A DNA stretch of 32,864 bases from NCBI GenBank assembly GCA_018063125.1, contig JAGOQY010000005.1, forward strand, positions 1-32,864, given 5' to 3'. Position numbers and translations under genes: made by a program. Each line of letters begins with the position of its first letter. The stretch's first letter is position 1. This document shows positions 2,805 through 29,800 of this stretch, in pieces. Below the pieces are notes generated by a model. The model made no database searches. It saw only the letters and a list, made by a program, of their open reading frames with translations, and was not told the origin of the DNA. Origin of the DNA: Patescibacteria group bacterium (GTDB lineage: Bacteria > Patescibacteriota > Patescibacteriia > 2-12-FULL-60-25).

Positions 2805-2833
2805 TTGACATTTTGGCCGTTTTTTGGTATAGC
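2805..2833 (+). promoter_or_regulatory. Sigma-70 type promoter of the Ig-repeat surface protein gene
   Basis: The -35 TTGACA (2805-2810) is consensus, followed by a 17-nt spacer and TATAGC (2828-2833). The ATG is 9 nt after the -10, so transcription should start only 2-4 nt before the start codon. This predicts an essentially leaderless mRNA. Confidence 0.75.
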
Positions 2834-2842
2834 ACACCTATT

Positions 2843-5713
2843 ATGAACACCCTTTCAAAGCGCTTCGCGGCCGCGTTTCTCCTTGCCGCAACGGTCTTGG
2901 CAGGAGCTCCGTCGCTGACTCAGGCGGCGACCAGCCCATGGTCTTGGACCGATGTTTCGAATCAGCTTACGGTTCGCAATAATCGCCCCGTTTGGGCCAT
3001 GGCCTACGGAAACGGCAATTGGTTCTACACCGATGGCCTCGACCTCTGGAATGGTGGTCAGGTCTACCGCTTTGATGGATACACTCAGGTCAACATCACG
3101 ACCGAAGTTCGCAACGCCGGATTGAACCGCGTTGATGAAATCGTGACCGACGGAACGAACATCATTTTTTTCAAGGACATCTTCCGCGTCGACAACGCCG
3201 TTGAAGCGATTCGCTATCGCGATGGTTCGTATTCGAACATCACGGGATTGATCCGCGCTGGACTCGACTCGAACGAAGGCATCAGCTCCATCGTTGGTCG
3301 CAACGGTACGTGGATGATGGTTTCGACGCGCGCCCGTTTGGTTCGCTTCAATGAGAATTTCTCGTCTTACAGCCGCCTTTCCGTTCCGACGGAGATCAAG
3401 CAATTCTCCTCGAGCAATTCTGACCTTCTCTACAGCGCGCATCATCGCATGGACCGCAATGGAGGCATTCTTCTTGCTCCAGTGGGAAACAAGTTCCTCC
3501 TCTTGGTCGACTTCACCATGCATTCCTCGACCCCGAATCGCGACATCGTGGGATATCTCTATGATGGAACGTCTTTCGTAAAGACCTCGCTCCCTTCCGG
3601 GATCCATTCATTCAGCGGTATTGCTTCGAATGATTCTCGCGCGTTGGTCTTTGGATATACCCTCGGTGGTCATGGAGCCTGGGGACAGCTTCTCGAATTT
3701 GATGGAACGACCTGGAAAAACCTGGACGGATTTTCTTCCGGTGGATACGGCGGTGATTACAGCTACTTTAAAGATAGCTCGAACTTCCTCGCGACATGGA
3801 CCGGATCGGAATGGATGATCATTTCCGGAAAAGAACAGTACCGCGTCGTAAACAATTCGATTGAACTCGTAGACACGCTCCGTGACTACTTCATCACTGA
3901 TGCTTCGAACAACTCCGGAACAGTTCTTCTCGGAGGCGCAGAATCCGACACCTTCGCGAACGGTCCGATCTTCCCGCTTCAGGCGAAGCTCGCGAAACTC
4001 ACGAACGGCGGAACTTCGAACAACGGTTCGACCTCCAACGGTACGTTCGGTGGTGGTCAGACGGGAACGTCTTCGTTTGGTCCGACGCTTCGCTCGATGG
4101 GTAATCCCTCGAACTTCCGCGTGGGCAACAATGGCACGTTCATCTATCGCCTCACGGCTTCTGACGCGAATGGCGTGGATCGCATCGACCTCTACGCAAA
4201 CGGCGCTCGTCTCAAGACGTGCTATTCCGACGTGTGTGAATTCGAATCTACGTATTTCACAAATGGTGCTTCGTACCGCACGGTTCCGTTTACGGGCCGC
4301 GCGACCGACAAACTCGGGTACTCGACCGATCTTCCGACCAACGACATCCTGACGATCGACCAGTCGACCGCCACAGCCGGAACGAACAACAATAACAACA
4401 ACTCGAACACGCAGACTTCAAATGGAGTCTCTGCCTGGTCCTGGGTTGAACCGAACCAGTCCTTCCTCCGCCGCGATCAGAACGTGATCTTCGGTGCGGG
4501 CTCCTGGTCCGACGCGGGCATCAAGCGTATCGAAATCGTGGTGAACGGTTCAACGCGCAACACGTGCCACTTTGCGAACGCCATGGGCAACCAGCAGTGC
4601 ACCTACTCCATCTGGGGTGGTGAATTCGCTCTCGGCACGAACGTCGCCGTGAACGCAAAAATCACGAATGGAAACGACCAGACACTCTGGACGGATCTCA
4701 AAAACTTGAACGTGACGGATGCGAACGGTTCCTCGAACAACAACAACAACAACAACACGAATTCGAACACGAACGTGTGGACCTGGTCTGAACCGGAAAC
4801 GTCTCAGATCAAGACCAACGAATCCGCGAAGTTCTTCGTGGGCGCCTCCGATCAGGACGGCATCCAGAAGATCGAGCTCTTCGTGAACGGTTCTAGCTGG
4901 AATACCTGCAACCTCGGAAACGCCTACGGCAACCAGTCCTGTTCTGTGACGGTTTCCGGTAGCTCGTTTGCCGCTGGTTCCGATGTCTACGTGAACGCGA
5001 AGATTACGGATTCCCAGGGCAACACCGCCTGGTCCGCTTCTCGCACGTATCGCATCGTCGCCTCGAATGGCACGACAACCCCGACGCCGTCTGGCACGAA
5101 TCCGACCTCCTCGTGGATTTGGTCCGCTCCGGAAAAGACTCAGCTCGCCAAGGATGAAACGGCAACCTGGAACGTCGGCGCGTATGATAACGACGGATTG
5201 AACCGCATCGATATCTGGGTGAACGGTGTCGTGAAGCAAACCTGTAATCTCGGCAACGCCGTTGGCAACCGCGAATGCAACTACGCAATCCGCGCGAACG
5301 ACTATGCCGCTGGAACGAACGTGTTCGTGAATGCCGCGATCATTGATTCGAAGGGTGAAACAACCTGGTCGGATTCTCGCTCATACGCGATCACGACCTC
5401 GAACGGCAATGGTTCTTCGAACGAAACACCGAACAACCTTCCGGGTTCCGTTCAGGTGACTTCGAACCGTGACAACGGCTTCTCGAAGAACGACACGATC
5501 ACCGTGACCGCGAACGCGCAGGATCAGAACGGTCTCAAGCGCATCGACCTTCTCGTGAACGGCACGCTCTACAAGACCTGCACGAACGTCGGTTCCTGCT
5601 CCGTCACGGTCGGTCCGTTCCCGCAGAACCAGACCATCTCGTATGGCGCGACCGTCGTCGACAACGCCGGCTTCGCCATCTGGACGGGATACAAGACGAT
5701 CAACAAAAAATAA
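2843..5713 (+). CDS. Large secreted protein: signal peptide, propeller-like N-terminal region and five Ig-like repeats joined by Asn/Ser/Thr-rich linkers
   Basis: A 956-residue exported protein. The N-terminus has a Sec signal peptide (K6, R7, then a hydrophobic core; likely cleavage near Ala28). Residues of about 30-390 contain repeated W/Y/G-rich strands, suggestive of a beta-propeller or sensor-like fold, although no family is recognised. Five related domains of about 85-95 residues follow, each with the pattern DxxGhxRIDhhVNG...C...C...W. Domains 2-4 begin WSW/WTW/WIW and have a C-x10-C pair; domain 1 has C-x4-C and domain 5 C-x5-C, so one disulfide per domain is likely. The linkers are poly-Asn. 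No sortase motif or C-terminal anchor is visible. Adhesion or surface-layer display is inferred, not shown. The in-frame TTG at 2813 was rejected as start because the promoter -10 lies between it and the ATG, and because the signal peptide begins at 2843. Confidence 0.9.
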   Translation: MNTLSKRFAAAFLLAATVLAGAPSLTQAATSPWSWTDVSNQLTVRNNRPVWAMAYGNGNWFYTDGLDLWNGGQVYRFDGYTQVNITTEVRNAGLNRVDEIVTDGTNIIFFKDIFRVDNAVEAIRYRDGSYSNITGLIRAGLDSNEGISSIVGRNGTWMMVSTRARLVRFNENFSSYSRLSVPTEIKQFSSSNSDLLYSAHHRMDRNGGILLAPVGNKFLLLVDFTMHSSTPNRDIVGYLYDGTSFVKTSLPSGIHSFSGIASNDSRALVFGYTLGGHGAWGQLLEFDGTTWKNLDGFSSGGYGGDYSYFKDSSNFLATWTGSEWMIISGKEQYRVVNNSIELVDTLRDYFITDASNNSGTVLLGGAESDTFANGPIFPLQAKLAKLTNGGTSNNGSTSNGTFGGGQTGTSSFGPTLRSMGNPSNFRVGNNGTFIYRLTASDANGVDRIDLYANGARLKTCYSDVCEFESTYFTNGASYRTVPFTGRATDKLGYSTDLPTNDILTIDQSTATAGTNNNNNNSNTQTSNGVSAWSWVEPNQSFLRRDQNVIFGAGSWSDAGIKRIEIVVNGSTRNTCHFANAMGNQQCTYSIWGGEFALGTNVAVNAKITNGNDQTLWTDLKNLNVTDANGSSNNNNNNNTNSNTNVWTWSEPETSQIKTNESAKFFVGASDQDGIQKIELFVNGSSWNTCNLGNAYGNQSCSVTVSGSSFAAGSDVYVNAKITDSQGNTAWSASRTYRIVASNGTTTPTPSGTNPTSSWIWSAPEKTQLAKDETATWNVGAYDNDGLNRIDIWVNGVVKQTCNLGNAVGNRECNYAIRANDYAAGTNVFVNAAIIDSKGETTWSDSRSYAITTSNGNGSSNETPNNLPGSVQVTSNRDNGFSKNDTITVTANAQDQNGLKRIDLLVNGTLYKTCTNVGSCSVTVGPFPQNQTISYGATVVDNAGFAIWTGYKTINKK
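4080..5713 (+). repeat. Five tandem Ig-like domain repeats within the surface protein gene
   Basis: Approximate units: 4080-4350, 4427-4723, 4772-5075, 5110-5400 and 5444-5713. Units 2-4 are the most alike. They share the block NGxxxxTCxxxNAxGNxxC and its DNA, as well as a WS/WT ending. This suggests recent internal duplication, with units 1 and 5 older or more diverged. Confidence 0.75.
4736..4756 (+). repeat. AAC triplet microsatellite (seven Asn codons); a sister tract lies at 4385-4402
   Basis: Seven perfect AAC codons encode a poly-Asn linker between Ig-like domains 2 and 3. The earlier tract between domains 1 and 2 has six Asn codons (one AAT). Slippage in units of three would change linker length without a frameshift. 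Confidence 0.85.
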
Positions 5714-14048: not shown

Positions 14049-15080
14049 TTAAAAATCCAATTCTGGATCCGCTGAAAGCGTCTTCCAGTTGTCACCTTTT
14101 GGCTTTGCAGTGAGTCGCCAGGCACCCGCGGCCGCGATCATCGCCGCGTTGTCCGTATGAAATCCGTGAGACGGAGCGAGCATTCGCACGTTCGGCAGTT
14201 CTCGCGCAACCGCCTTCGACATCTCTTGTTGCAAATGCTGATTTGCCGAAACGCCGCCCACAATCGCGAGCGCAACCGGCTTGGACTTCTTGGCCGCTGT
14301 CAGTGCTTTCTTCACAAGAACGTCCACGATCGCCGTTTGAATCGATGCGGAAAGATCGGCGACTTTTTCTTTGCGTTTGGACTTTGGAAGATTCTGCCAC
14401 TCACGAAGAACAGCGGTTTTAAGACCGGAAAAACTCATGTCGAGCGAAGGGTCATTCAACATGGGACGTGGCAAATCAAACGAGGTGGGATCACCTTTCA
14501 GCGCAAGTTTCGCCAGTGCTGGACCGCCTGGATATCCGAGCCCCATCAACTTTCCCATCTTATCAAATGCCTCCCCCGCCGCGTCATCTCGTGTACGGCC
14601 GAGAACTTTGTACCTGTTGAAATCACGCATCAGAATCAATTCTGAGTGACCACCGGAAACCAGGAGAAAGAGAATCGGAAATTTCCATCCTTTTCGATTT
14701 TCGGGAACAAGCCACGTTGATGCGAGATGACCTTCCAGATGGTTCACACCAACGATCGGGACGTTCCGAACCGCCGCGATTGTTCGCCCGGCTTCAAGAC
14801 CGACACGAAGAGCCGTTGCGAGTCCCGGACCGCGCGTGACCGCGACCGCATCGAACCGCGGCTTTGGTCCGAAGGCTTTTGCGCGTTCTAGAAGAGAAAC
14901 AAGTTCCGCAACATGCGTACGCGCCGCGACTTCGGGAACAACCCCGCCGTATCGTGCGTGAATCGGAATCTGTGTTGCGGTCTCATGATGGACTAGCCGG
15001 ACACTCTTTCCGACCTCAAGAATCGCGACGGATGTCTCGTCACAGCTGGTTTCGATTCCCAAGACGCGCAAACGTTTCAT
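14049..15080 (-). CDS. tsaD: tRNA N6-adenosine threonylcarbamoyltransferase TsaD
   Basis: A 343-residue catalytic subunit of t6A synthesis that transfers the threonylcarbamoyl group to A37. Conserved motifs are all present: GIETSCDETS (8-17), metal ligands His114 and His118 in NHLEGHLAS, VSGGHSE (141-147), DDAAGEAFDK (165-174), SFSGLKTA, GGVSANQHL, and Asp310 in HTDNAAMIA. Full length. The ATG at 15080 sits 6 nt after a -10 box, predicting a leaderless transcript. First gene of a tsaD-tsaE-hypothetical operon. Universally conserved and not a sign of transfer. Confidence 0.97.
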   Translation of the reverse strand: MKRLRVLGIETSCDETSVAILEVGKSVRLVHHETATQIPIHARYGGVVPEVAARTHVAELVSLLERAKAFGPKPRFDAVAVTRGPGLATALRVGLEAGRTIAAVRNVPIVGVNHLEGHLASTWLVPENRKGWKFPILFLLVSGGHSELILMRDFNRYKVLGRTRDDAAGEAFDKMGKLMGLGYPGGPALAKLALKGDPTSFDLPRPMLNDPSLDMSFSGLKTAVLREWQNLPKSKRKEKVADLSASIQTAIVDVLVKKALTAAKKSKPVALAIVGGVSANQHLQQEMSKAVARELPNVRMLAPSHGFHTDNAAMIAAAGAWRLTAKPKGDNWKTLSADPELDF

Positions 15081-15086
15081 GCAAGG

Positions 15087-15115
15087 AAATTAGCGGAAAA
15101 TAGCGAGATTGTCTA
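15087..15115 (-). promoter_or_regulatory. tsaD operon promoter
   Basis: On the minus strand: TAGACA (15115-15110), 17 nt, TAATTT (15092-15087), then 6 nt to the ATG. The predicted transcription start falls on the start codon itself. Confidence 0.65.
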
Positions 15116-15124
15116 CGGATCAGG

Positions 15125-15175
15125 ATAAAAAGAAAGGCCCGGCACCAGTCGAAATGAATCGACCGATACCGGACC
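15125..15175 (-). terminator. Strong intrinsic terminator after the lectin-like gene
   Basis: A long imperfect stem pairs 15136-15152 with 15159-15175 around a short loop. On the minus strand a T-rich tail follows (15135-15125). It begins only 5 nt after the stop codon. Confidence 0.85.
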
Positions 15176-15180
15176 AGAGA

Positions 15181-15975
15181 CTACAGAACTGCCAGGACGC
15201 GGAAACCGACGCCATCACCGGAACCGCCATGCCAGCTGTCGTACACACCCGCGAGACCGCCGTAAGAAGAGCAACCAACGACGAGAAGGTACCCGGACTC
15301 GCAGGCGTTTTCACACCATTCAAACGCATTCGTGTAGCCGAGATCGGGGAGGGGCATGTCACGGTGCTCACTGAGCCAGTTAAAAAGATTGCCGACGAAG
15401 TTCCACTCCTCTGCCGTCGGGAGACGGGTACCCTTCTTGGGGAATCCCGTCACCTTGGCGATGTCGGAGAGAATCCCTCCCGCGAGATCCTCGTAGCTCG
15501 TATTGAAGCGCAGGGAGGGATATTTCACCATCGCCACGAGCCGATCGTCCGGATAGCCGTCTTTGTCGTCCCAGTTGGGCTTTGCAATCGTCTCGATCGC
15601 GATCCACTGACCTTCGAGAGACTTCCGTTCGATCTTCGAGAAGAGGCGTGAGAGATGCTCGTTCCACGCGAGCTTCACGAAGTGTTCGGGATACTGCTTC
15701 TCCGTGATGGCAGGGATATAGATGAGCAGGAAGTTGAACTTTGCGATCGACTTCACCTGCTTCTCCGTGAGCTTGGGCACGACCGGAACCCTGGCTTCGA
15801 TCCCAAGCTCGTCATACACCCCCTGCCAGAAAGCCTGAGCGTTCTCTGGCAAAAGCAATGCTTCCGCGTCACGCCAGAGCGTCGGATTTTTCAGGAAGGC
15901 ATCGAGATCGCTCTCGAGGATCCGTCCAGCTTCGTGTCGCTCGATGAGTTGCTTAATCATTCCGCTGATCGCCAT
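15181..15975 (-). CDS. Protein with C-type-lectin/FGE-sulfatase-like C-terminus; candidate DGR target
   Basis: A 264-residue protein with no clear signal peptide. The first 170 residues are soluble and mixed alpha/beta (LPENAQAFWQGVYDELGIEA; KFNFLLIYIPAITEKQYP) and match no family I recognise. The last 80 residues read as a formylglycine-generating-enzyme/C-type-lectin fold: TRLPTAEEWNFVG, then NAFEWCENA, CSSYGGLAG, SWHGGS and the terminal GFRVLAVL. Variable proteins of diversity-generating retroelements (DGRs) use this fold, and CPR genomes are rich in them. The start at 15975 is fixed by an SD (GAGGAGA, 15989-15983) 7 nt before the ATG; the open frame runs on to 16053 without support. It is a single-gene unit with its own terminator. 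No reverse transcriptase is in the window, so DGR membership is unproven. Confidence 0.75.
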   Translation of the reverse strand: MAISGMIKQLIERHEAGRILESDLDAFLKNPTLWRDAEALLLPENAQAFWQGVYDELGIEARVPVVPKLTEKQVKSIAKFNFLLIYIPAITEKQYPEHFVKLAWNEHLSRLFSKIERKSLEGQWIAIETIAKPNWDDKDGYPDDRLVAMVKYPSLRFNTSYEDLAGGILSDIAKVTGFPKKGTRLPTAEEWNFVGNLFNWLSEHRDMPLPDLGYTNAFEWCENACESGYLLVVGCSSYGGLAGVYDSWHGGSGDGVGFRVLAVL

Positions 15976-16104: not shown

Positions 16105-16128
16105 AAAATCGCATAAAAATGCGATTTT
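16105..16128 (-). terminator. Intrinsic terminator after trxB
   Basis: AAAATCGCAT (16105-16114) pairs perfectly with ATGCGATTTT (16119-16128) around a 4-nt loop. On the minus strand the stem ends in TTTT followed by TCGTTT. Confidence 0.85.
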
Positions 16129-16149: not shown

Positions 16150-17079
16150 TTACGCGTGTTCTGACAAGAATCTCTCCGCATCCAACGCCGCCATACATCC
16201 ACTTCCAGCGGCTGTGACCGCCTGACGATAGTGCGGATCCTGAACATCTCCAGAAGCGAAGACTCCGGCGACGTTCGTCTTGGCAGTTCCTGGAACTGTT
16301 TTGATATATCCCTTTTCGTCGAGGTCGAGAACGCCTTTGAAGAGCTGGGTGTTCGGTTCATGACCAATCGCGGCAAACACGCCGTCGATTGGCATCTCGC
16401 GAAGTTCACCCGTCACTGTGTCTTTGAGTTTCACGCCTTGAACCTGTCCGGCTTCGACACCCAGGATCTCTGCGACCTCTGCGTTCCAGATCACTTCGAT
16501 TTTCGGATTCGCGAGAGCGCGTTCCTGCATGATCTTTGACGCCTTGAATGCGTCGCGGCGATGAACGATCGTGACTTTCTCGGCGAAGCGCGTGAGAAAG
16601 TTTGCTTCTTCCATGGCGCTATCTCCTCCACCGACGACGATCACCTTTTTTCCTTTAAAGAAAAATCCATCACAGGTCGCACACGCGGAAACACCTTTTC
16701 CGTAGAGCGCTTTTTCAGATTCCAATCCGATACGGCGAGCGGTTGCGCCCGTTGAAATGATGATGGAATTGGCTTCGTAGATCTTTTCACCGACCGTGAC
16801 CTTGAACGGACGAGCTGAGAAATCGACGGCAGAGACACGTTCCTGAATCACTTCGGTTCCGAAGCGGACGGCCTGCTTCTTGAAATGATCCATGAGATCT
16901 GGACCCAAAATCCCCTCGGGAAATCCCGGGAAGTTTTCGACATCCGTCGTGGTCATGAGCTGTCCGCCGGGTTCAGGACCTTCAAACAGGAGCGGCGACA
17001 AATTCGCACGCGCGGCATATACCGCCGCCGTCCAACCGGCCGGACCTGAGCCAATGATAATGACGTTTCGAACATCCAT
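16150..17079 (-). CDS. trxB: Thioredoxin-disulfide reductase
   Basis: A 309-residue FAD/NADPH enzyme that reduces thioredoxin. It has an N-terminal FAD Rossmann motif ([19 protein letters not shown], Gly10/Gly12/Gly15), redox-active CATC (Cys133 and Cys136), the NADPH-binding motif [20 protein letters not shown], and the C-terminal FAD motif [10 protein letters not shown]. Length is typical (310-320). The ATG at 17079 follows the trxA stop by 1 nt, giving a compact trxA-trxB operon. The longer frame to 17166 overlaps trxA and is not used. No SD is present. Together with TrxA it keeps cytosolic thiols reduced. Confidence 0.96.
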
Positions 17080-17080
17080 A

Positions 17081-17404
17081 TCAGGCGAAATACTTTGCGA
17101 GCTTGGACTTGAATTCTTCCTTGGACATCGCGCCCGAGAATTGATCCACCACTTTTCCACCTTCAAAGACGATAAATGTCGGGATGGACATGACGCGATA
17201 GGTCATCGCGGTCTGGCCGCTGTCATCGACGTTGAGTTTGCCGATTTTGAGCTTGGCCGGATCTACCTCGTTCGCCAACTCTTCGATAATCGGAGAGGTC
17301 AGGCGGCACGGTGGGCACCAAGTCGCCCAAAAATCCACGAGAACCGGAGTGGTGGCTTCGAGGACGTCAGATTGAAAATTTTGGTCGGTAAAGGTGTGTT
17401 CCAT
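17081..17404 (-). CDS. trxA: Thioredoxin with WCPPC active site
   Basis: A 107-residue thioredoxin-fold protein without a signal peptide. The active site is FWATWCPPC (Cys30, Cys33), with Pro where classical thioredoxins have Gly (WCGPC). The cis-Pro loop is MSIPTF, followed by [13 protein letters not shown]. Normal thioredoxin length, and the tight link to trxB supports a true thioredoxin partner role, although WCPPC is more common in TlpA/ResA-like reductases. The ATG at 17404 is preferred over the in-frame GTG at 17428. TAAAAT (17417-17412) lies 7 nt before the ATG, fitting the leaderless pattern. An alternative promoter (TTGCCT, 17 nt, TAGTGT at 17453-17425) would give a leader of some 15 nt. 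Confidence 0.93.
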
Positions 17405-27349: not shown

Positions 27350-29800
27350 TCAGGGCTGGAGGTCGAATTGAAGGTCGAACGGACCCTTCGCATAGTGACC
27401 GGCGTTGATGCCGTCCACGATGAGGAAGACGGGGGTCGAAGCAGTCACGGAGATGACCAGCTCCTCGCCGCCGTACGTGTCGTTCTCGCACGCGATCTCG
27501 GATCCGGCGCTGTCGCAGTCGGTACGAGCCGAGAGGACCGCGTCCCAGCAGAGATCCGTACAGGTGTCGGAGTCGCAGATGAGCGCATCGTTCGCGTCGT
27601 AGCCGATGCGGACGGTCAAGGTGCCCGTGATGGCCGGAGTGATCGCGAGGACGTAGTCCTGGCCACCGTTTCCGCCGCCACACGACGCCGTGAGGTTGTC
27701 CGCGTAGTTGACCGTCGTCAGGTCGTCCGCCGAAGCGGTGAGCGCGCTCTCGCCCGACGGGATGTTGTAGCCCTTTCCGGGGCAGTCCTCCGCGTCCGGA
27801 TCGGGCGCTTCGGATTCGCACGAGCTGTTGCAGAACGGCGTCGGCGGTTCGCACTCCTCGTTCGAGGCGACGAAGCCGTCTCCGCACACCGAGGTGTCGT
27901 AGTCGACCGTCAGATTGAAGCTTCCGCTTCCCTCGACGATGACGTAGTAGGTGGACTCCGAAGCCTGGAAGGTCAGATCGGTGTCGCACTGTTCACCGAC
28001 CGCACTCCCGCAGGTCGTGCGGACGCCGAGAGTGCCGTTGTCGGTCGAGAGGTGGAGGATGCCACCCGTCGCCGAGAGATTGAGGCGGTAGATACGATCG
28101 CCGGTCCCGGTGGTCCCGCACGCCGATTCGTCGTCCGCGCTCGTCGTGAGGTTCCCGGACAGAACGGTCGGGCTCGCGCCCATGGTGATCGTGTGCGGTT
28201 GACCCGGACAGGCCTCGTAGTCGAGCGTCGCAGACTTGGAAGCCTCCGCCGTGTTGCCTTCGAAGCCCATGTTGATGCGGCTTCCGTTCGGAGCGGGTTC
28301 GTTCGTGAACGCGCTCGCGGGGTCGCCCGCATCGATCGCCGGACTCGTCGTCGCGTCGGTCACCCAGCCGCCGGAGGTCCAGTGACCCGCCGTCGACTTG
28401 AGATGGTAGTCGTTCCCGGCCGAATCCACGAACTGCGGATTCGACGTGATGTTGCCGGTCCCGGAGAGGCTCGTGACCGAGTAGGTCGCCGACCAGCTCG
28501 TCCCGGATTGGCCGCCGATGTCACCCCCCGAGTTGCCCCAGAGGATGGAGTTCTTCAGCGTGACCGTCGACTGACGTTCCAGGAAGATCGCCGGCCCGGA
28601 GCACGAGTGGTCCGCGACCGTGATGTTGGTCGCCGTGAGCGTGGAGCCCGGGCCACTCGACCCGGCGCCATCCACGTAGATCGCGTGACCGTTGTTCGTG
28701 CACTGGTTCTTGTAGAAGAGGTCTCCCTCCATCGTCGCGACGGCTTGCTCATCGAGAAAGAAACCGGACCCGATGAGCGGGGTGTCGTTGTTGGTCCACA
28801 CGTTCCGCTTCAGAGCGACACTGCCTCCGCTGAAGACTCCGCCGCCACCCCAGCCGTAGCCAGCGAGGATGCCGGTCACGTTGGATTTGACGAGGTTGTC
28901 CTCGAAGGTGCCGCCGCTCACAGCGAACCAGAAGCCGCCGCCGTGATCGTTCTGCCCGAGGTTGCCCTCGATGCGGTTGCGGAGAATGTCCAGGTTGCCC
29001 TGGCCGCCGATCCCAGCGCCCCATCCACCCTTGTTGTTGTAGATGTGGGAATCTTGGACCTTGATGCGCCCCGTCGAGGCTCCGTTCGCGTTCGTGGTGA
29101 GGTAGATGCCGCCACCGATCTGCGAGTTCGCCGCGATCGAGTTGGTCTGGGAGTCGTACACCTCGAGGTGCGACAGGGTCAGAACGCCGGAACCCGTCCA
29201 CTGAGCGTAGACCCCGCCACCATGGCCGTAGCCGTTCTGCCAATTGGTCCCGAGGCCCTTGCCTCGACGAATCGCCAGACCGTCCACGGTCATGTTGTTC
29301 GCTCCGGCTCCGACATGGAGACGAAGACCGGAATTGGCCAGGTTGTTGTCGAGCAGGGTCCGGTACGTCCCCTGGTTCCGAACGCTGAAGCTCGAACCGC
29401 TCTGAAAGCCGCCCAAGATGTTGAGCCGCTTCGAGCTGAAGTTGCCGTAGCTTCCGATGACCGGATTCTCGGCGTACGTCCCCTGAGCGATCTGGATCGT
29501 GTCGCCGGCCTTCGCCGCGGTGATCGCTTGAGAGATGGTTCGGTACGGGCTTGCCGCGGTTCCGGGGCCCGAGTTGTTGCCGAGGGCCGTGTCGACACAC
29601 ACGACCGCCGGATTGGACGCATGCGTCCCCGTGCAGGCCGAGATCTGACCGTTGTCAGTACCGATCGGCCCCACCAGGTAGTCCGTCGCCTCTGCGACGG
29701 GCTCTTCATCCCCCGGTGGATTCCTATCCTCCGGCGAATCTTCCGACGACGAGCACGCGATGAGCCCGAGAGCCATCACAACCAACCAGAACATTTTCAC
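27350..29800 (-). CDS. Large lipoprotein with parallel beta-helix domain and myxobacteria-type Cys motif
   Basis: An 816-residue predicted lipoprotein. The signal peptide MKMFWLVVMALGLIAC ends in lipobox LIAC (Cys16), followed by an acidic/Pro linker. Residues of about 45-510 are a right-handed beta-helix of the pectate-lyase/DUF1565 type: ASPYRTISQAITAAKAGDTI, then many Gly/Asn rungs such as GGGIYLTTNANG and LKNSILWGN. Two beta-sandwich regions follow, and between them is CGDGFVASNEECEPPTPFC, very like the Cys-rich repeats of Myxococcota surface proteins. The last 100 residues have six paired Cys. The DNA is visibly more G+C-rich than the flanking genes (one sampled line 41 of 60 bases, against 31 of 60 in ftsH). 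The GTG start fits an SD (AAGGAG) at 7 nt; the ATG at 29794 is 13 nt away. Glycan binding or cleavage at the surface is possible, but no catalytic residues were identified. Confidence 0.85.
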   Translation of the reverse strand: MKMFWLVVMALGLIACSSSEDSPEDRNPPGDEEPVAEATDYLVGPIGTDNGQISACTGTHASNPAVVCVDTALGNNSGPGTAASPYRTISQAITAAKAGDTIQIAQGTYAENPVIGSYGNFSSKRLNILGGFQSGSSFSVRNQGTYRTLLDNNLANSGLRLHVGAGANNMTVDGLAIRRGKGLGTNWQNGYGHGGGVYAQWTGSGVLTLSHLEVYDSQTNSIAANSQIGGGIYLTTNANGASTGRIKVQDSHIYNNKGGWGAGIGGQGNLDILRNRIEGNLGQNDHGGGFWFAVSGGTFEDNLVKSNVTGILAGYGWGGGGVFSGGSVALKRNVWTNNDTPLIGSGFFLDEQAVATMEGDLFYKNQCTNNGHAIYVDGAGSSGPGSTLTATNITVADHSCSGPAIFLERQSTVTLKNSILWGNSGGDIGGQSGTSWSATYSVTSLSGTGNITSNPQFVDSAGNDYHLKSTAGHWTSGGWVTDATTSPAIDAGDPASAFTNEPAPNGSRINMGFEGNTAEASKSATLDYEACPGQPHTITMGASPTVLSGNLTTSADDESACGTTGTGDRIYRLNLSATGGILHLSTDNGTLGVRTTCGSAVGEQCDTDLTFQASESTYYVIVEGSGSFNLTVDYDTSVCGDGFVASNEECEPPTPFCNSSCESEAPDPDAEDCPGKGYNIPSGESALTASADDLTTVNYADNLTASCGGGNGGQDYVLAITPAITGTLTVRIGYDANDALICDSDTCTDLCWDAVLSARTDCDSAGSEIACENDTYGGEELVISVTASTPVFLIVDGINAGHYAKGPFDLQFDLQP

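Follow-up and report, generated by a model that had tools for sequence, protein, structure and literature searches.

Partial DGRs have already been described, with precedents in Nanoarchaeota and in Thiohalocapsa. Those of Nanoarchaeota consist of a target gene, a variable region (VR) and cis elements without a reverse transcriptase (RT), and the authors proposed that they are either fossils or remote targets (Paul et al. 2015, PMC4372165), a question which has remained open for RT-less DGR targets since 2015. At the degenerate DGR loci of Thiohalocapsa PB-PSB1 the machinery is missing or pseudogenised (PNAS 2024, PMC10907252). The locus described here lies in a window of 32,864 nucleotides (the whole stretch of DNA that was analysed), which constitutes an entire contig (C42) of a 906-kb patescibacterial assembly with 77 contigs and 82% completeness. 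The window contains a gene which is, most likely, a DGR target that has lost its retroelement and has been kept as an ordinary gene, i.e., a relic (Table 1).

Table 1. Features of the target locus and its neighbours in the window
Feature	Position	Strand	Remarks
tsaD, downstream neighbour	14049..15080	(-)	Empty site in relative G120, where tsaD adjoins trxB directly
Rest of spacer up to tsaD; expected place of template-repeat (TR) leader, TR and RT	15081..15125	(-)	No RT scar, no TR
T-run of the terminator (TTTCTTTTTA)	15126..15135	(-)	
Hairpin, 17 bp, loop TTCATT; best read as intrinsic terminator of the target gene	15136..15175	(-)	An orthologous hairpin follows the target of G383
Variable-region equivalent	15181..15309	(-)	Gapless alignment to G383 VR and TR, -126 to +3 relative to stop; 18/20 A-site codons NNY
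Target (variable-protein) gene, 264 aa	15181..15975	(-)	ORF; homologues of 35-61% identity in Patescibacteria; no known domain
Hairpin with T-run after trxB, separating the target gene from trxB	16105..16128	(-)	
trxB-like reductase, upstream neighbour	16150..17166	(-)	

The target gene has an ATG start and a TAG stop, and its product terminates in GLAGVYDSWHGGSGDGVGFRVLAVL, which agrees with the C-terminal GFRVLAVL that had been recorded at this position in the initial annotation. The 100 nt between its stop codon and tsaD are fully assembled and hold only the terminator, while the direct trxB-tsaD junction of G120 implies that the target gene is accessory at this place. Elsewhere in the window, the large proteins encoded at positions 2813-5713 and 27350-29800 show matches to the bacterial Ig domain Big_7 and to disaggregatase-related/DUF1565, and are probably surface proteins.

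Searches with the target protein against Pfam, NCBIfam, PHROGs and PADLOC returned no family match, PDB profile searches returned chance hits only, and no relatives of the target were detected in the viral contigs searched. The lectin- or FGE-like fold originally attributed to the tail was not confirmed, as no FGE-sulfatase profile of Pfam or NCBIfam matched the protein, the AlphaFold model exhibits pLDDT values below 50 over residues 225-254, and a Foldseek search with this model, of low confidence over the tail, returned no match. By analogy with other DGR targets, the product is presumably a binding protein with its tail facing the ligand.

A class-wide search of 381 genomes identified relatives of the target in 22 others. 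The closest relative, from a genome of the same family (G383, JAHJFW010000090.1, L081/L106), is 61% identical to the target, and its tail is partly repeated just downstream by a TR, which differs from the VR by 11 mismatches at template A and by two others over 129 nt. This TR is followed by an RT of the DGR type that is divided between two frames, although the split could be a sequencing error. Five more distant homologues are also paired with a TR (A-mismatches/others: G378, 17/1; G212, 17/2; G370, 16/0; G190, 9/1; G363, 13/1), and RTs of relatives carry the DGR motif LGNLTSQ. No gaps are needed to align the last 43 codons of the window gene with the G383 template. Because G383 and the five other homologues are paired with templates which differ almost only at A, homology identifies the tail of the window gene as a DGR variable region, and its codons retain the corresponding footprint. 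The earlier suggestion of a C-terminus of the DGR variable-protein kind is supported by homologues with A-only TRs and DGR RTs of their own.

The abundance of NNY codons which had been noticed in the tail is also borne out, since 29 of the 34 codons before FR are of this type, compared to a proportion of 0.54 in the gene body. When A-sites are defined as the 20 codons with A at position 1 or 2 in the G383 or G378 template, 18 of these are NNY in the window gene, an excess (p = 5e-4) over the proportion of 0.53 for the gene body, and all 11 AAN-type sites are NNY. Once conditioned on amino acids, the excess at A-sites has a p value of 0.012, and this modest footprint counts against the view of the gene as a relic. 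Ordinary evolution mostly changes the third codon position, whereas DGR writing leaves that position intact. Between the window gene and that of G383, differences at codon positions 1, 2 and 3 number 9, 10 and 6 at A-sites, as opposed to 3, 4 and 11 at other sites (Fisher p = 0.016).

The long hairpin reported behind the gene is indeed present, beginning 5 nt past the target stop, with a 6-nt loop, and TTTCTTTTTA comes directly after it. Its predicted folding energy is -32.6 kcal/mol (z -9.1), and no shuffled sequence was equally stable. All 17 pairs are kept between the window and G383 hairpins, with five pairs changed on both sides (compensatory) and three on one side, and T-runs are found behind both. 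In G383, the hairpin is located between the VR and the template, where it would end the target transcript. Hairpins with a GRNA tetraloop after the VR are typical of DGR targets, though not universal. Of the two roles that had been considered for the window hairpin, that of a cruciform was rejected on account of the TTCATT loop, which is not a GRNA tetraloop, and of the T-run behind it, while that of a terminator is favoured by the same two features and by the position of the G383 hairpin. The most plausible reading is therefore that of a terminator which the gene brought with it by inheritance.

The initial annotation had found neither an RT nor a TR in the window, and searches of the assembled contigs extend this result to the whole 906-kb assembly. 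No match to RVT_1 or to a profile of the relatives' DGR RTs was obtained in the assembly, at 82% completeness, nor did the window, including the region downstream of the target gene, yield any RT remnants. A 123-nt IUPAC pattern for an A-only template, allowing up to three mismatches, recovered the VR alone, in agreement with a DNA (BLAST) search, and no second copy of the C-terminus was found in the assembly with a profile that does detect the TRs of G383 and G378. Of the components of a complete DGR, the RT and the A-only template repeat are accordingly both missing from the assembled contigs.

Eleven targets from nine genomes of the clade, the window gene included, lack a template. The other ten, for which no template was found anywhere in their assemblies, belong to G276, G353, G339, G169, G053, G006 (two genes), G346 and G151 (two genes); five of these genomes possess RTs elsewhere, while G006, which is 99% complete in two contigs, has no DGR RT. 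In G151, one of the targets is followed, at a distance of 56 nt, by what is left of a DGR RT, namely its C-terminal tail, which is 67-70% identical to that of G378, a genome of the same genus whose cassette is intact. In G346, an RT C-tail lies 144 nt past the target stop and is preceded by the start of the conserved TR leader. These remnants are read as deletions of the template and the RT core. The target of G339 is shortened to 97 aa. In G276 and G339 (L082, L084), the orphan target was seen by eye to share a position just before an hpf-like gene (ribosome hibernation factor).

Phylogenetic analysis placed the window gene with those of G383 and G276 (93/92), and that of G378 with the scar-bearing G151 gene (100/100); the deeper forks of the tree are unresolved. 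The target family is represented in an intact state (G378), with a broken RT (G383), in a deleted state with a scar (G151 and G346) and as clean orphans (the window, G006, G053, G276, G353 and G169). Two of the observations count against a relic: the window locus itself carries no scar, and most other target-bearing genomes of the family hold some RT.

Several further features were observed among the relatives. A conserved leader with strong predicted folding separates the target stop from the template in L081, L019, L024, L026 and L040 (GATAGAATTTT, GGCTNNTG...CGCC, GAAACGACTTGT...); it had no match in Rfam when searched from L106 and L019, and possibly forms a structured portion of the template RNA. 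Behind the stop of TR-bearing targets, and of some others, there are tandem (T/C)TTGGNN(N) repeats with a period of ~8, which the window lacks. Repeats of this TTGG type are found just past the target stop in L081/L106, L019, L026, L027, L089, L090 and L092, and nearly all of their genome hits in G300, G151 and G346 are at variable regions. Many are located elsewhere in G378 and G383, and a strictly DGR-specific role was not upheld; a cis element and a general intergenic repeat are both possible. In G300, a genome of the same family in which no DGR RT was detected, nine target tails exhibit DGR-type variation (L092 on C26, and contigs C16, C18, C21 and C37); several are arranged in tandem on a single contig, and the differences among four copies compared are mostly at codon positions 1 and 2. 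In G363, one target is located on C39 (L029) without an adjacent TR, the TR being on C26 (L060), and this single template (13 A-mismatches, one other) matches both a nearby VR and the VR on the other contig. The C39 target is, on this sequence match, likely a trans target, and trans action may thus exist in the wider family, which counts against the relic interpretation.

The proposed history of the window gene draws on its homology to template-paired targets, its codon footprint, the absence of TR and RT both in cis and from the assembled genome, and the deletion scars of its relatives. In the ancestor, a DGR RT would have copied the template repeat with errors at A, and the error-bearing copies would have been written into the last ~125 nt of the target gene. 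Template and RT would later have been lost, either by being deleted in place or through a move of the gene and its terminator alone to the site between trxB and tsaD, and the last variant would have persisted as a normal protein gene that has a terminator of its own. We infer that the window copy was active in the past, is inactive at present and continues to function, the intact frame being the one feature that speaks for the last of these. For the clade, we tentatively propose that several lineages lost the DGR by deletion but kept the target frame, which turned a hypervariable binding protein into a fixed gene, i.e., a domestication of the DGR product, although the chances of this are put at slightly below even.

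It had initially been suggested that the retroelement acts from elsewhere, in which case the window gene would be diversified in trans by a DGR located in the 18% of the genome that is missing from the assembly. The incompleteness of the assembly leaves room for such a DGR, and the G363 target with its TR on another contig, the trans action inferred in Thiohalocapsa (PMC10907252) and the lack of erosion at the AAN-type sites all point in the same direction. Both the RT and the TR would, however, need to fall outside the assembly, and the other ten template-less targets of the clade also lack a TR in their own assemblies, even though five of those genomes hold RTs; active diversification from a remote site is therefore considered unlikely, and no support for it was obtained from the assembled genome.

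An intact cassette might also be present in some cells of the species, with the assembled genome representing the deleted form, as structural variants with intact machinery are found at two degenerate Thiohalocapsa DGR loci (PMC10907252). The assembly shows no sign of this, the locus being contiguous with tsaD at 100 nt, and such a polymorphism is regarded as highly improbable. Finally, the window gene might be related to DGR targets without ever having been diversified itself, given that most clade genes lack a TR, so that G383 and G378 might have acquired the DGR late. This is very unlikely in view of the NNY footprint and the inverted codon-position divergence of the window gene, and the RT scars beside two other orphans indicate loss as opposed to late gain.

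A retroelement that was lost, leaving its target behind, thus remains the preferred explanation. Its significance is that the occurrence of a single family in intact, broken-RT, scarred and clean-orphan states renders both the loss of the retroelement and the later fate of the protein directly testable, and that genes diversified in the past are overlooked when DGRs are counted by their RTs. Among known systems, the G383 cassette shares with the window an orthologous target and terminator hairpin, but retains a TR and a broken RT, both of which are lacking in the window. The targets of CPR DGR clade 2 are, like that of the window, patescibacterial, with a C-terminal variable region and no recognisable domain; they are RT-linked by way of their discovery (Nat Commun 2021, PMC8144416), while the window target has no RT. 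The Thiohalocapsa PB-PSB1 loci are similar in that their machinery is missing or pseudogenised, yet that genome retains intact DGRs able to act in trans, while no intact DGR was found in the window genome. As in the partial DGRs of Nanoarchaeota, the target of the window bears signs of A-directed mutagenesis with no RT beside it. It differs from these in its Uhrbacteria-like host and in an assembly in which no template was found, and the deletion scars of its relatives favour the fossil reading of the two that were proposed for the nanoarchaeal loci.
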